Assembly: GCF_002944315.1 (NCBI RefSeq) | Contig: NZ_CP024311.1 | Location: 1,526,501 to 1,590,500 of the forward strand | Direction: 5' to 3' | DNA: 64,000 nucleotides | Source: Rhizobium sp. NXC24 | GTDB lineage: Bacteria; Pseudomonadota; Alphaproteobacteria; Rhizobiales; Rhizobiaceae | In this document: positions 12,480-30,654 of the stretch, piece after piece | Layout of the letters: each line of letters begins with the position of its first letter | Position numbering within the stretch: the stretch's first letter is position 1 | The notes under the pieces: model-generated | What the model saw: the letters and a program-made list of their open reading frames with translations, nothing else | What the model was told of the DNA's origin: nothing | The model's database searches: none | Translations under genes and position numbers: made by a program

Positions 12480-12555
12480 GCCCTTGTAGCTCAGTTGGTA
12501 GAGCACCTGATTTGTAATCAGGGGGTCGCGGGTTCGAACCCTGCCGGGGGCACCA
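12480..12555 (+). tRNA. tRNA-Thr(TGT)
   Basis: The 76-nt cloverleaf includes an encoded CCA. The anticodon stem CCTGA/TCAGG encloses the loop TTTGTAA, giving anticodon TGT, which reads ACA. The T arm is GCGGG-TTCGAAC-CCTGC. Its 3' 50 bases are repeated at 30605-30654, so this gene is the insertion site of the element to its right. The element restored a complete tRNA. Confidence 0.96.
12506..12555 (+). repeat. attL core, 50-bp direct repeat in tRNA-Thr
   Basis: These bases, from the 5' side of the anticodon stem to the CCA end, are identical to 30605-30654. They are the left boundary of the integrated element. Confidence 0.93.
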
Positions 12556-12588
12556 AAAATTCACAGTCAGATCAATGACTTAATGATT

Positions 12589-12614
12589 AACCCGCCCTCA
12601 GTTGGCGGGTTTTT
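12589..12614 (+). terminator. Terminator after tRNA-Thr, supplied by the element
   Basis: AACCCGCC and GGCGGGTT pair around a 7-base loop and are followed by T residues. It lies 33 bases inside the left end of the element, so the element brings the terminator for the tRNA gene it entered. Confidence 0.8.
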
Positions 12615-12781
12615 CATGCGCCACTGATTTAACCAGAATTACCATGTTTTCCTGGCTTTCCCTTAGAGTAGCGGGGATTCGGTGGAACATGGATGGCGCA
12701 TGACGGCGGCCTGCTCTCCATTAGGTACCTCCGCCAATCAGGTTTACAATCAACGCGGCCCTAGTCGGCTGGGGGATTGCG

Positions 12782-13024
12782 ATGGCCTACACGACCGTGG
12801 ATTTGGAAATGGCCGAGAGCCATATCTCGTTGGGTGAAAAGCACATCGTCGAGCAAGAGATGCTGATCACAATTTTCACTGCCAAGGGTTATGACACTGT
12901 GGGTGCCGAAAGGCTTCTTGAGTTGTTCGTGGATATGCTGAAAATCCACCGCGATCATCGAGACATGATTGCTTCTAAATTGCAGCGATCTGGACCGCCT
13001 GCAGCGCGCGGACCACGAGACTGA
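12782..13024 (+). CDS. Small conserved hypothetical helical protein
   Basis: This 80-residue protein has an N-terminal pattern AESHISLGEKHIVEQEMLI followed by a DTVGAERLLELF segment and HRDHRDMI. The pattern of paired His/Glu heptads matches a small family often seen in Rhizobiales with no known function. It is predicted to be all-helical and cytoplasmic. Its start follows a G-rich stretch (GGGGGA). It lies between tRNA-Thr and tRNA-Arg near the left end of the element. Confidence 0.6.
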   Translation: MAYTTVDLEMAESHISLGEKHIVEQEMLITIFTAKGYDTVGAERLLELFVDMLKIHRDHRDMIASKLQRSGPPAARGPRD

Positions 13025-13376
13025 GTGGATGCGGATTGCTGACGGTGACGCCAATCAATCCGGACACGGTGTCCAGATTGAAAGCAAGAGAAGCGACGGA
13101 AGAGGCCACCGCCCCGAATCCGGCATCTCTCTAGCGGCCCGCTCGCTCCCTATACCGGGCAAGACCGAAGAGGCGACACATTTAAAGCCGCCGACGCGCC
13201 TAGAGCGGCAACGCCGACGGTCGCGGTACGTGTTCAAGCGCACCGCCTGTCCTGCCGCTCGAAGCCGGCGGGATCTGCTTCTCTTCCACAATAACGCAGT
13301 CGTGTGTAGTTGAAAACCGGCCAGCGCTCCTCTGGTGTTGGCGAGGGTGGTGATAGCGCTGGCCATTGGTAACTGG
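13025..13376. other. Non-coding stretch left of tRNA-Arg
   Basis: No open frame here has a ribosome site or recognisable protein. The 352 bases hold no clear repeat or promoter that I can support. Confidence 0.4.
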
Positions 13377-13453
13377 TGGCGACCCCTGCAGGACTCGAAC
13401 CTGCGACAACCTGCTTAGAAGGCAGGTGCTCTATCCAACTGAGCTAAGGGGCC
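13377..13453 (-). tRNA. tRNA-Arg(TCT)
   Basis: The 77-nt cloverleaf on the minus strand starts GGCCCCTTAGCTCAG and ends GGGGTCGCCA with an encoded CCA. The anticodon stem CCTGC/GCAGG encloses CTTCTAA, giving TCT, which reads AGA. The acceptor stem pairs fully if one G-U is allowed. It lies inside the element, 0.85 kb from the left att site. Confidence 0.93.
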
Positions 13454-13466
13454 GAATCTACTATGA

Positions 13467-13868
13467 CTATTGTCTCTGCTGTCTCGGCAAATAGAAATCC
13501 AACCTCGTGGCTCGCATGTCGATTTCGCAAGCCTCAGCAAGTCCAACGGCGGTGCCAGTAAGAAGACCGGCAATCTTCTTGATGACGTCCTCGATCTCCA
13601 ATCCGCGGTAGGCGCGATCGTATACGGTGTCGAGCAGGTGATGGGCGCAGCCAATGCGATGAATAGCGTTCTCGATGTCTCGCGGAACGATATCGACGGC
13701 AGCATCAAGAATGGCGTCGACGGTGGCGTATCCGATGTCGCGGGTGGTTTCACATCCAACGGCGTCGGCGTCATCGATTTTTTCTACCGTCTCACGGAAC
13801 AGCGGAAAGAGGTCCGGCCGGAGGTCGGTGACGTTTGCTCTCAATTTGTTAACCAACATTTGCGTCAT
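13467..13868 (-). CDS. Hypothetical protein of the element
   Basis: The 133-residue protein is not recognised. The ATG at 13868 follows GAGGATCC and is preferred to upstream in-frame codons. It looks cytoplasmic and mostly helical, with an acidic middle (VEKIDDADAVGCETTRDIG) and a HRIGCAHHLLD segment. It is divergent from the XRE regulator, with a palindrome between the two starts, so it may be controlled by that regulator. Confidence 0.6.
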   Translation of the reverse strand: MTQMLVNKLRANVTDLRPDLFPLFRETVEKIDDADAVGCETTRDIGYATVDAILDAAVDIVPRDIENAIHRIGCAHHLLDTVYDRAYRGLEIEDVIKKIAGLLTGTAVGLAEACEIDMRATRLDFYLPRQQRQ

Positions 13869-13893
13869 TTTGGGATCCTCGTTGCAAATCAAC

Positions 13894-28965: not shown

Positions 28966-29177
28966 GCTGCAGCCCTCTCAGCTTCTGCCATCCACTTGGC
29001 CAGGCTGCTCTTTCGCGCCGCCACGGTGCCACCAAGCTTGAAGTGGGGCGCCAGGCCATCGTAACACAGACGATAGACTTGCCTCGGTGTGATGCCGAGG
29101 AACCTCGCAATAGCGTTCGCGCCCATAAGCAGGTCTCCATCAATATTGTCGTTCGCTACTTCCAAACTTTTTTGCAT
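28962..29177 (-). CDS. Excisionase/AlpA-like DNA-binding protein
   Basis: The 71-residue protein starts at 29177 after a perfect GGAGG. GANAIARFLGITPRQVYRLCYDGLAPHFKLGGTV is a winged HTH of the excisionase (helix_turn_helix_17/AlpA) type, where RQVYRL is the recognition helix and the next turn is the wing. It is the first gene of the leftward early operon and is divergent from the integrase. It may direct excision, activate the early operon, or both. Confidence 0.8.
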   Translation of the reverse strand: MQKSLEVANDNIDGDLLMGANAIARFLGITPRQVYRLCYDGLAPHFKLGGTVAARKSSLAKWMAEAERAAA

Positions 29178-29195
29178 TTTTCCTCCAGCAGGGTG

Positions 29196-29224
29196 TTGAC
29201 ATCTGGTAGTTTGACGGGTTATAA
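29196..29224 (+). promoter_or_regulatory. Integrase promoter
   Basis: TTGACA (29196-29201), 17 bases, then TTATAA (29219-29224): a near-consensus sigma-70 type promoter pointing at the integrase start 127 bases away. A second TTGAC lies at 29211. Confidence 0.65.
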
Positions 29225-29258
29225 AGATAATTGGGTTATCTTGCTCATCTCTCATTTT

Positions 29259-29287
29259 TGTATATGTCAATTTGACAATTTTGTCAA
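29259..29287 (-). promoter_or_regulatory. Leftward early promoter with operator palindrome in the spacer
   Basis: On the minus strand TTGACA (29287-29282), 17 bases, then TATACA (29264-29259). The spacer contains the perfect palindrome TGTCAA-N-TTGACA (29265-29277), an obvious place for a repressor to block transcription of the excisionase-replication-head genes. Confidence 0.7.
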
Positions 29288-29350
29288 GGTTTACCTTGCC
29301 TGCCTCGCTGTGCCGTGCTTTCATGCGCCATCCAAATCAGGAGGTCATGA

Positions 29351-30589
29351 ATGGCGACAATCACGAAACGAAAATGGAAGACAAGCAAGGGCGAAGAGCG
29401 CGAAGCTTGGGTGTTGGCCTTCACTGATGCGGCCGGCAAGCGGCACAAAGAGCAGTTCGAAAAGAAGCGCGATGCCGAGGCTCGCCGCACTGAGGTGACG
29501 CATCAAGTCGTTACCGGCACGTATCGCGCAGAAGCTGCAAGCACCACTGTCGACGACGCTGTTACAGATTATCTAAAGCTGCTGGCCGGTCGCCGTGACC
29601 GCGGCGAGCATGTAACGGAGCACTACTACAGGACCGTCGAAGGTCAGTTGCGGAATTACGTGGCGCCGACCGAAGAGCATCGGTTAAAGCAGTCGGAAAA
29701 GACCCGGATCATTTTTGACGGCGGCATCGGCACAGTTAAGCTTTCCCAGTGTACTGCCAAGGTGGTCGGTGACTTCCGCGATCGTCTGCGAGACGCAGGA
29801 GTCGGAGTTGTCACAACGCGCCGTATTCTCGGCAGTCTGTCGCGCGCCCTGCAGCACGCGGTCGGCAATGATCTGTTGGCCGTAAACCCGGCCACCAATA
29901 TTCGCGTAACCGGCAAGCGCGGCGAGGGCAGTAAGAAGGTAACGCCTCCATCGAAGGCAGATCTAGCCATTGCGCTAGCGCAGGCCAGGGGAAGCCTTGC
30001 GGTCCGCGTGCGCCTGTCGGCATCCTCCGGTGTGCGAGCATCTGAGCTGTACGCCGTGCGATGGAAGCATGTTGCCTTCAATGCCGGCGAGCTAACCATT
30101 GATGGCAGGGTAGACGCCTACAAGAATGAAGACACAACGAAGTCGGTTGCGGGCATCCGGCAAGTTCCTCTCTCATCGGCCATGCTGGCTGAGCTTCTGG
30201 CATGGAAGGAAGCCGCAAAGAAGAAGGAAGCCGATGATCTTGTCTTTCCAAACACCAAGGGCGGATTCCTCGATCACAAGAACATCCTGAAGCGCGAGTT
30301 TCGCCCCCTGATGAAGGCCGCTGCAGCCAAAGCAAAAGAGGAAGGCCGGAAGTTCAAGCCATTCAACTGGCACGCCCTAAGGCACTTTGCCATCTCGCTT
30401 TGGATTGAGGCTGGCCTTCAGCCAAAGACGGTTCAGACCTTCGCCGGCCACTCCTCTCTGGCCGTTACCATGTCTCGATATGGGCACCTCTTCCCGAGTG
30501 ATACCCACCGCAATGTCATGGATCAGATTTCGCCCTCCATTTTCGGCGATGGCGCACAAATGGCGCATGATGCCGAAGAAGCACTGTGA
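29351..30589 (+). CDS. Tyrosine-family site-specific integrase
   Basis: The 412-residue protein starts at ATG 29351 after AGGAGG. A short N-terminal arm-binding part, a SAM-like core-binding domain (about 60-170) and a catalytic domain follow in order. The active-site set is complete: R229 (GVRASEL), H341 and R344 (HALRH), H367 (GHSS) and Y377 (SRYGH). It recombines attP with the tRNA-Thr gene. It lies 15 bases from the right att core and reads towards it, the usual layout for elements inserted in tRNA genes. Confidence 0.96.
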   Translation: MATITKRKWKTSKGEEREAWVLAFTDAAGKRHKEQFEKKRDAEARRTEVTHQVVTGTYRAEAASTTVDDAVTDYLKLLAGRRDRGEHVTEHYYRTVEGQLRNYVAPTEEHRLKQSEKTRIIFDGGIGTVKLSQCTAKVVGDFRDRLRDAGVGVVTTRRILGSLSRALQHAVGNDLLAVNPATNIRVTGKRGEGSKKVTPPSKADLAIALAQARGSLAVRVRLSASSGVRASELYAVRWKHVAFNAGELTIDGRVDAYKNEDTTKSVAGIRQVPLSSAMLAELLAWKEAAKKKEADDLVFPNTKGGFLDHKNILKREFRPLMKAAAAKAKEEGRKFKPFNWHALRHFAISLWIEAGLQPKTVQTFAGHSSLAVTMSRYGHLFPSDTHRNVMDQISPSIFGDGAQMAHDAEEAL

Positions 30590-30604
30590 AATAAGGCTTT
30601 ATAC

Positions 30605-30654
30605 CCTGATTTGTAATCAGGGGGTCGCGGGTTCGAACCCTGCCGGGGGCACCA
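30605..30654 (+). repeat. attR core, partial tRNA-Thr copy
   Basis: These 50 bases are identical to 12506-12555. They are the 3' part of the original tRNA-Thr displaced by the insertion and lack the 5' half, so they are not a working tRNA gene. Confidence 0.93.

Follow-up and report, generated by a model that had tools for sequence, protein, structure and literature searches.

An integrated element of Rhizobium sp. NXC24 as a putative capsid-forming satellite with a receptor-binding protein on a helper-type fibre base

Capsid-forming phage-inducible chromosomal islands (cf-PICIs) encode their own capsid, head protease, portal, connector, small and large terminase subunits (TerS and TerL), HNH endonuclease and integrase, and need the tails of a helper phage (PMC10690885). 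Three separate radiations of cf-PICI capsids have been reported (PMC11389934), and cf-PICIs use diverse phage tails, which widens their host range (PMC13345588). In the window analysed here, a 64,000-nucleotide stretch of the Rhizobium sp. NXC24 chromosome (positions 1,526,501 to 1,590,500 of contig NZ_CP024311.1), an integrated element of about 18 kb (12506-30654) carries the same head and packaging set together with an integrase. We consider it rather likely that this element is a capsid-forming satellite that uses the tail and lysis functions of a helper and adds its own receptor-binding protein on a base matched to the helper's tail fibre.

At 18 kb the element exceeds the cf-PICI average of 14 kb, and its host lies outside the cf-PICI host groups named in that account, among which Alphaproteobacteria do not appear (PMC10803314). 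Unlike cf-PICIs, it has a helper-type fibre, a RepA-like ATPase and kin with tape-measure or neck genes. Its gene order, with the terminase last, also appears to differ from that of cf-PICIs. Tail piracy by cf-PICIs offers a parallel in that satellite host range is set at the tail, but there the target is set by whichever helper tail is taken, whereas the element would supply its own tip protein. MulchRoom and MiniFlayer of Streptomyces are likewise satellites with their own head genes, and MiniFlayer has a tail fibre gene (PMC10690885). That fibre, which binds the helper's neck, is the nearest described case, whereas the base of the element's fibre is of the helper's own tail-tip type; MiniFlayer is without a lysogenic module, whereas the element is integrated, and neither Streptomyces satellite has a primase in that account (PMC10690885). 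Phages 16-3 of Rhizobium and phiLM21 of Sinorhizobium share a fibre base with the element (62-63% identity) and have an acetyl- or methyltransferase gene head-on to the fibre, but they are complete siphophages of 51-60 kb with a tape measure, distal tail proteins and a hub. Searches of the open-access literature, outside which most subscription journals lie, turned up no recognisable description of either satellites with a fibre on a helper-matched base or cf-PICI-like elements in rhizobia. A first-pass annotation, made from the sequence, had called the element a satellite of the capsid-forming PICI type; the satellite-like gene set and site-specific integration hold up, while membership of the cf-PICI family is not supported as written.

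Head genes and a chimeric fibre

Pfam and PHROGs assign the portal, protease-capsid, HNH, connector, TerS and TerL genes as first annotated, and find no tail-tube, tape-measure, hub, holin or endolysin family among the submitted frames of the element. Hidden Markov models (HMMs) were made from proteins of relatives in the wider family for the portal, capsid, connector, TerS, TerL, tape measure, major tail and head closure. They detect the first five in the element and in the tail-less L048, L148, L198 and L199, and in none of these do they find a tape measure, major tail or head closure; since the capsid model matches the phage 16-3 capsid at 3e-52, it reaches far. The absence of tail and lysis genes that the first-pass annotation had noted is borne out by Pfam, by PHROGs and, for the three tail proteins modelled, by the family HMMs. 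Hidden tail genes were also sought among the unassigned frames and rejected for two of them, one resembling a cement protein (126 residues) and the other a MerR-like protein (147 residues) by fold; frames of 292, 156, 89 and 69 residues stay without an assigned function after the family searches. Of the integrase and AlpA/excisionase-type regulator expected of cf-PICIs, the element has a tyrosine integrase (PF00589) and, as a candidate for the regulator, an HTH_17 protein (PF12728). The portal-capsid DNA gave no match to phage records. Three familiar classes can be set aside: a classical PICI or P4-like satellite has no capsid, portal or TerL of its own, and the element has all three; a complete temperate phage would need the tube, tape-measure, hub and lysis genes not found here; and a gene transfer agent, which is no excisable unit and has a tail cluster, does not fit an element with an integrase, att repeats, empty sites and no tail genes found.

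The fibre combines a phage-fibre N terminus (phrog_38233) with a Peptidase_S74 C terminus. Residues 1-184 are 50-63% identical to rhizobial siphophage fibres among the best matches, the fibres of 16-3 and phiLM21 standing at the upper end of that range, and in both of these phages the base-bearing fibre gene directly follows the hub gene. The body (residues 216-727), searched alone against 5.8 billion proteins, with scoring confined to the 7993 candidates that shared the most words, retrieved 102 proteins; one is the element's own, and among the candidates scored the base occurs in none of the other 101. Judged from its sequence, the fibre is a chimera of a helper-type base and an unrelated receptor-binding body. 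It had first been listed as an unusual extra; the fibre is real, and it appears more meaningful than that.

The slot behind TerL holds a receptor-binding-type gene in 8 of 13 tail-less elements, the present one counted. A full 16-3-type base lies there in the element, L048 and L148, part of such a base in L151 and L198, two proteins of other tail-fibre families (phrog_9648 and phrog_863) in L045, a phrog_4271 tail protein in L154, and a 74-residue segment resembling the 16-3 fibre in L153.

The 3' end of the fibre gene lies 15 bp inside an O-antigen acetylase gene on the opposite strand; in L198 the fibre is faced head-on by an enzyme of the GSCFA family. Five of seven base-bearing phages examined (16-3, phiLM21, phi3LM21, where the enzyme is on the same strand, NV1.1.1 and Rivra) encode a transferase of the acetyl, methyl or glycosyl type next to the fibre region; in N28_2 and TM3_3_3 proteins without an assigned function take the fibre-adjacent place. 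Distant homologues of the acetylase (26-33% identity) lie near the fibre in three prophages of the genus (L275, L291 and L292). The simplest reading of these arrangements is that fibre and surface enzyme were acquired as a cassette from a phage of the 16-3/phiLM21 type.

Relatives and rival readings

A scan of 148 same-genus genomes located the base in 26 of them, at a total of 33 places with the element's own counted; 30 of the 33 base-bearing stretches were compared, and the L198 base was missed at E 1e-10. At 17 of these 30 loci, tape-measure, distal-tail and hub genes of the 16-3/phiLM21 type directly adjoin the fibre, and these loci are helper-type prophages; the phiLM21 hub occurs in 18 of the 148 genomes. 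No hub of this type was found at the other 13, which include a prophage where a large protein occupies the hub position (L301), a partial base (L302), two loci not classed (L274 and L296) and nine satellite-like loci (L279, L285, L287, L288, L289, L293, L294, L295 and L297). In these nine the family HMMs find no TerL, portal or capsid, and eight have TerS or a tape measure (L288 has neither). All but L279 form a second kind of element, in which integrase/RepA-type early genes accompany a helper-type fibre. On a base tree of 40 rows (14 satellite-type, 25 phage or prophage, L301 among the latter, and the unlabelled L296; L302 was dropped), satellite and prophage bases are intermixed, with at least 10 changes of kind on a topology whose bootstrap is not settled.

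The genome G304 holds a candidate satellite-helper trio, made up of the hub-less L279 (with L309) and the prophages L278 and L280 as its probable helpers. L279 is bounded by 80-bp repeats at a tRNA-Pro, about 17.2 kb apart, and carries TerS, neck and tape-measure genes. Over its full length of 828 residues, the L279 fibre shares 92% identity with the fibres of both prophages, at a ratio of nonsynonymous to synonymous substitution (dN/dS) of about 0.06. At the DNA level, L279 matches these prophages solely in the fibre, in 221 bp adjoining it and in the tape-measure gene at its ends. The tape-measure frame of L279 has 656 residues against 862 and 761 in the co-resident prophages; compared with that of L280, its last 257 residues are 59% and its first 270 residues 41% identical, and the middle is unlike. 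A tape measure shortened in this way could specify a shorter borrowed tail.

Across elements the fibre bodies vary, with an S74 chaperone in the present element, a GDSL hydrolase in L285 and a beta helix in L297, and the base is kept, as expected for working receptor-binding proteins. Fibres in hub-less elements are also strongly constrained (dN/dS 0.091 for L293/L294 and 0.065 for L279/L278). Both observations speak against the most probable rival, itself unlikely, which also makes the element a capsid-forming satellite but treats fibre and acetylase as mere cargo, the acetylase changing the cell surface against other phages and the fibre hitch-hiking or poisoning the helper through its fibre sites. 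In favour of this rival, fibre and enzyme resemble one moved cassette, and the same slot in L199 is occupied by defence-like genes, whose products are a kinase resembling PD-T4-6, a DUF3010 protein and one that weakly matches Abi_alpha. As a known defence system the cargo was rejected: the three window proteins tested had no PADLOC match.

When viral contigs were searched for the capsid, 156 stretches of the wider family matched; among the best 80 kept, 49 contigs measure 14.0-20.1 kb, 22 are shorter and 9 longer, many of them predicted proviruses whose ends may be cut. Most relatives share the order integrase, early genes, portal, capsid, HNH, connector, TerS, TerL, and many bear an incomplete tail set (neck, terminator, head closure, major tail, tape measure), a tape-measure cluster being present in 61 of the 94 rows of the TerL set; genes of kin were called by codon usage and homology, which missed some (for example, an acetylase came out shortened). 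L076, L040, L054, L072, L122 and others, at 14-20 kb, carry head, neck and terminator genes and a long tape measure, in one case with a VanY domain, and no hub was found in elements of this type. Sixteen distal-tail and hub queries from 16-3, phiLM21, N28_2 and Rivra gave one weak match in 107 loci (L118, 29%, E 5e-6) and one 52-residue hub fragment in 13 further loci of the genus (L200, behind its tape measure), whereas the same hub was recovered among the phages themselves at 27-58% identity. Apart from these two, no member of the wider family examined has a helper-type hub, which means that even the tail module seen in the kin is a partial one; by this test, the family spans a range from no tail to tube plus tape measure, with the hub missing throughout.

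By TerL, the close kin number 18 distinct elements, 15 of them from a TerL-tree clade of 17 rows, in which a single Hoeflea element accounts for three, the others being L045/L201, L198 and L200 (the tree omits L034, L155, L136, L143 and TerL below 450 residues; the gene maps omit L157-L179 and loci below 9 kb). Tape-measure and neck genes were not found in 13 of the 18, and the tree mixes elements with and without tail genes. Compared with six relatives, the element has a dN/dS of 0.040-0.053 in TerL and, where unsaturated, of 0.087-0.142 in the portal, rough values in that synonymous differences (pS) are near saturation and uninformative where pS exceeds 0.75. The head genes of the kin have diverged to near synonymous saturation with a low ratio of nonsynonymous differences (pN) to pS. 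High values also occurred, for the MerR-like protein (0.79 against L035 and 0.59 against L045, at 27% identity) and for integrases of other types (0.45 against L035). Going by these ratios, head genes are under purifying selection in the relatives. In one close relative (L045/L155/L201, genome G329), TerL is split by an ISAZ013-type transposase gene, and this element may be inactive.

These comparisons bear on a second rival, slightly less probable than the first, in which the element is a defective prophage, a small phage of the family that recently lost its tail module and is decaying. Tape-measure and/or neck or terminator genes lie after or beside TerL in five of the 18 close kin (L043, L149, L150, L120 and L200), including the nearest by TerL, L043 (91%), whose tape measure is 45% identical to that of phiLM21 over about 550 residues, and L200 retains the hub fragment. 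Against decay, all head, integration and replication frames of the element are open, its att repeats are exact, pN is well below pS between tail-less relatives, and the tail-less state is that of the majority. Hub and lysis genes were not found, by the tests made, even in kin that bear a tape measure, so those kin are not complete phages either. The interspersed tree and low dN/dS argue for persistence of tail-less heads and not for the decay of one prophage; a recent single deletion from a tailed relative is not favoured, given also the saturated head genes. Close relatives with a tail module at this point, which had been named in advance as a sign of recent deletion, thus exist in part, and the deletion itself does not follow from them. 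Finally, a satellite with a short-tail-like particle, its fibre set on the head or binding the helper virion as proposed for MiniFlayer, would agree with the lack of tube genes and with the satellite fibre described in PMC10690885, but is very improbable, since siphophages encode the fibre with this base beside the tail hub, which points to the tail tip.

Several observations weigh against a capsid-forming satellite with its own helper-matched fibre. The tail-bearing kin, L043 among them, do so, as does the detection of only one connector in an otherwise complete cf-PICI-like head set. The likeness to the base in L151 and L198 is confined to its first part, and L198 forms a very long branch on the base tree. 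No recognisable receptor-binding gene was seen in 5 of the 13 tail-less kin (L046/L199, L035, L146, L152 and L036), and at the element's own tRNA-Thr site it is the defence-like genes that fill the slot in L199/L046 (L199 12283-17073). Searches of the element's genome, limited to the fibre, PF04860, PF10145 and the phiLM21 hub, found no second fibre, no other PF04860 portal, no PF10145 tape measure and no phiLM21-type hub, so no helper of the 16-3 type is resident. The helper of a cf-PICI need not be resident, as has been reported for an example from E. coli (PMC11389934).

Integration site and gene content

The ends of the element are marked by an exact 50-bp direct repeat, noticed at first annotation, which corresponds to the 3' end of a tRNA-Thr gene (Table 1). 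The NAD-kinase/tRNA-Thr stretch is present in 25 other genomes of the genus, and its locus was examined in 24. In six (L214-L219) the site is empty: past NAD kinase and tRNA-Thr, only 56-208 bp precede the homologue of 34861-34890; because these loci join the tRNA to the flank without it, the element stretch is an insertion. The remaining 18 show no such flank match (a divergent or short flank, or another element there). G321, G333 and G306 harbour other elements at this tRNA-Thr, which are flanked by att copies of 48-50 bp (96-100% identity) and have integrases 87-89% identical to that of the element (87% in G321 and G306). A 4.1-kb metabolic segment (30655 to about 34750; LysR, alcohol dehydrogenase, cyclophilin-like and MFS genes) separates attR from the flank that kin share and was found elsewhere, among the loci compared, solely in the matching contig L034/L134. 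Farther along the window, 38711-40119 and 60926-62063 match the same parts of L271 and L289 and represent a duplicated chromosomal gene.

Table 1. Features of the element and its attachment sites (positions in the window)
Feature	Position	Strand	Evidence or remark
tRNA-Thr(TGT)	12480..12555	+	last 50 bp (12506-12555) are one att copy
Extra tRNA-Arg(TCT) inside element	13377..13453	-	96% identical to another copy in the genome
156-residue protein (133 from later start), function unassigned	13467..13937	-	homologue at end of L048; no Pfam, PHROG or PADLOC match
XRE-type helix-turn-helix (HTH) regulator	13962..14201	+	PF01381
O-antigen acetylase (AT3 + SGNH), convergent with fibre	14377..16338	+	PF01757/PF19040; phrog_6705 5.6e-120
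Chimeric tail fibre	16324..18507	-	helper-type base (residues 1 to ~184) + S74-chaperoned body
TerL	18795..20417	-	PF20441/PF03354
TerS	20386..20787	-	PF05119
Head-tail connector (adaptor Ad1 type)	20787..21080	-	PF05135, phrog_40
HNH endonuclease	21403..21825	-	phrog_2323/144; no Pfam match
Capsid cement protein, 126 residues (by fold)	21914..22294	-	phrog_5707; weak Bbp16 (Pfam); fold match
Prohead protease (S78) fused to HK97-type major capsid, one frame	22363..23910	-	PF04586 + PF05065
Portal	23907..25121	-	PF04860
MerR-like DNA-binding protein, 147 residues, before portal (by fold)	25102..25545	-	fold; longer frame starts at 25713
292-residue protein, function unassigned	25790..26668	-	weak phrog_36072; homologues in L107, L123
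RepA-like AAA_25 helicase/primase-type ATPase	26836..28506	-	Pfam/PHROGs
Two small frames, function unassigned	28466-28735, 28756-28965	-	homologues in kin; no Pfam/PHROGs family match
HTH_17 excisionase/AlpA-like protein	28962..29324	-	PF12728, phrog_66
Tyrosine integrase	29351..30589	+	PF00589
Second att copy	30605..30654	+	50/50 bp identical to 12506-12555

The integrase, the excisionase-like gene, the RepA-like ATPase and the tight gene overlaps are all as first annotated. Two assignments come from predicted folds. The 126-residue product, which matches the BPP-1 cement protein 3j4u_H at E 2.4e-4 and has Carin1 and Pam1 capsid entries among its best 50 fold matches, is by fold a capsid cement protein; the 147-residue product, with an AlphaFold2 model of mean pLDDT (predicted local distance difference test) 86.6 and CvkR, a MerR-type protein (7xn2), as its best match at E 1.3e-3, is by fold a MerR-like DNA-binding protein. 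Ahead of the connector gene, a stretch at 21017-21178 has a translation that is kept in L148, L048 and L153. As a gene, the small frame that precedes the connector in kin (cluster 56) was rejected, since it looks like conserved DNA instead, and the stretch is possibly a DNA signal such as a cos site. A 99-residue frame (21107-21406) lies between HNH and connector on the strand opposite to the head operon, and kin have other opposite-strand frames near this region.

Proposed helper exploitation and choice of host

We posit that the element builds and fills its own head from the portal, protease-capsid, cement, HNH, TerS and TerL that it encodes, and takes tail and lysis functions, needed because its own genes for them are absent, from a helper, for which a 16-3/phiLM21-type siphophage of rhizobia is the most likely candidate. 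Once the element is induced, its heads would be joined to tails of the helper, some or all of which would receive the satellite fibre in place of the helper's, so that the satellite would pick the recipient cell. The acetylase would alter the surface polysaccharide of the lysogen, which, we propose, would guard the lysogen from re-adsorption. A broader proposal stands at even chances of being right: satellites of at least two kinds in the genus, head-making ones like the element and ones with TerS or a tape measure in which no capsid, portal or TerL is found, may carry exchangeable targeting cassettes, each a receptor-binding body on the helper's tail-fibre base and in some cases a surface-modifying enzyme, and some may resize the tail with a shortened tape measure that keeps helper-type ends.

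Satellite host range, usually taken to depend on which helper's tail is used, is an open question. If the proposed scheme is true, tail manufacture would be parasitised while the choice of cell stays the satellite's own, uncoupling host choice from the helper. The identity of the helper would then be readable from the fibre base in a genome sequence, the base predicting the helper and the body the recipient, and satellites would constitute a reservoir for the exchange of receptor-binding proteins among phages.

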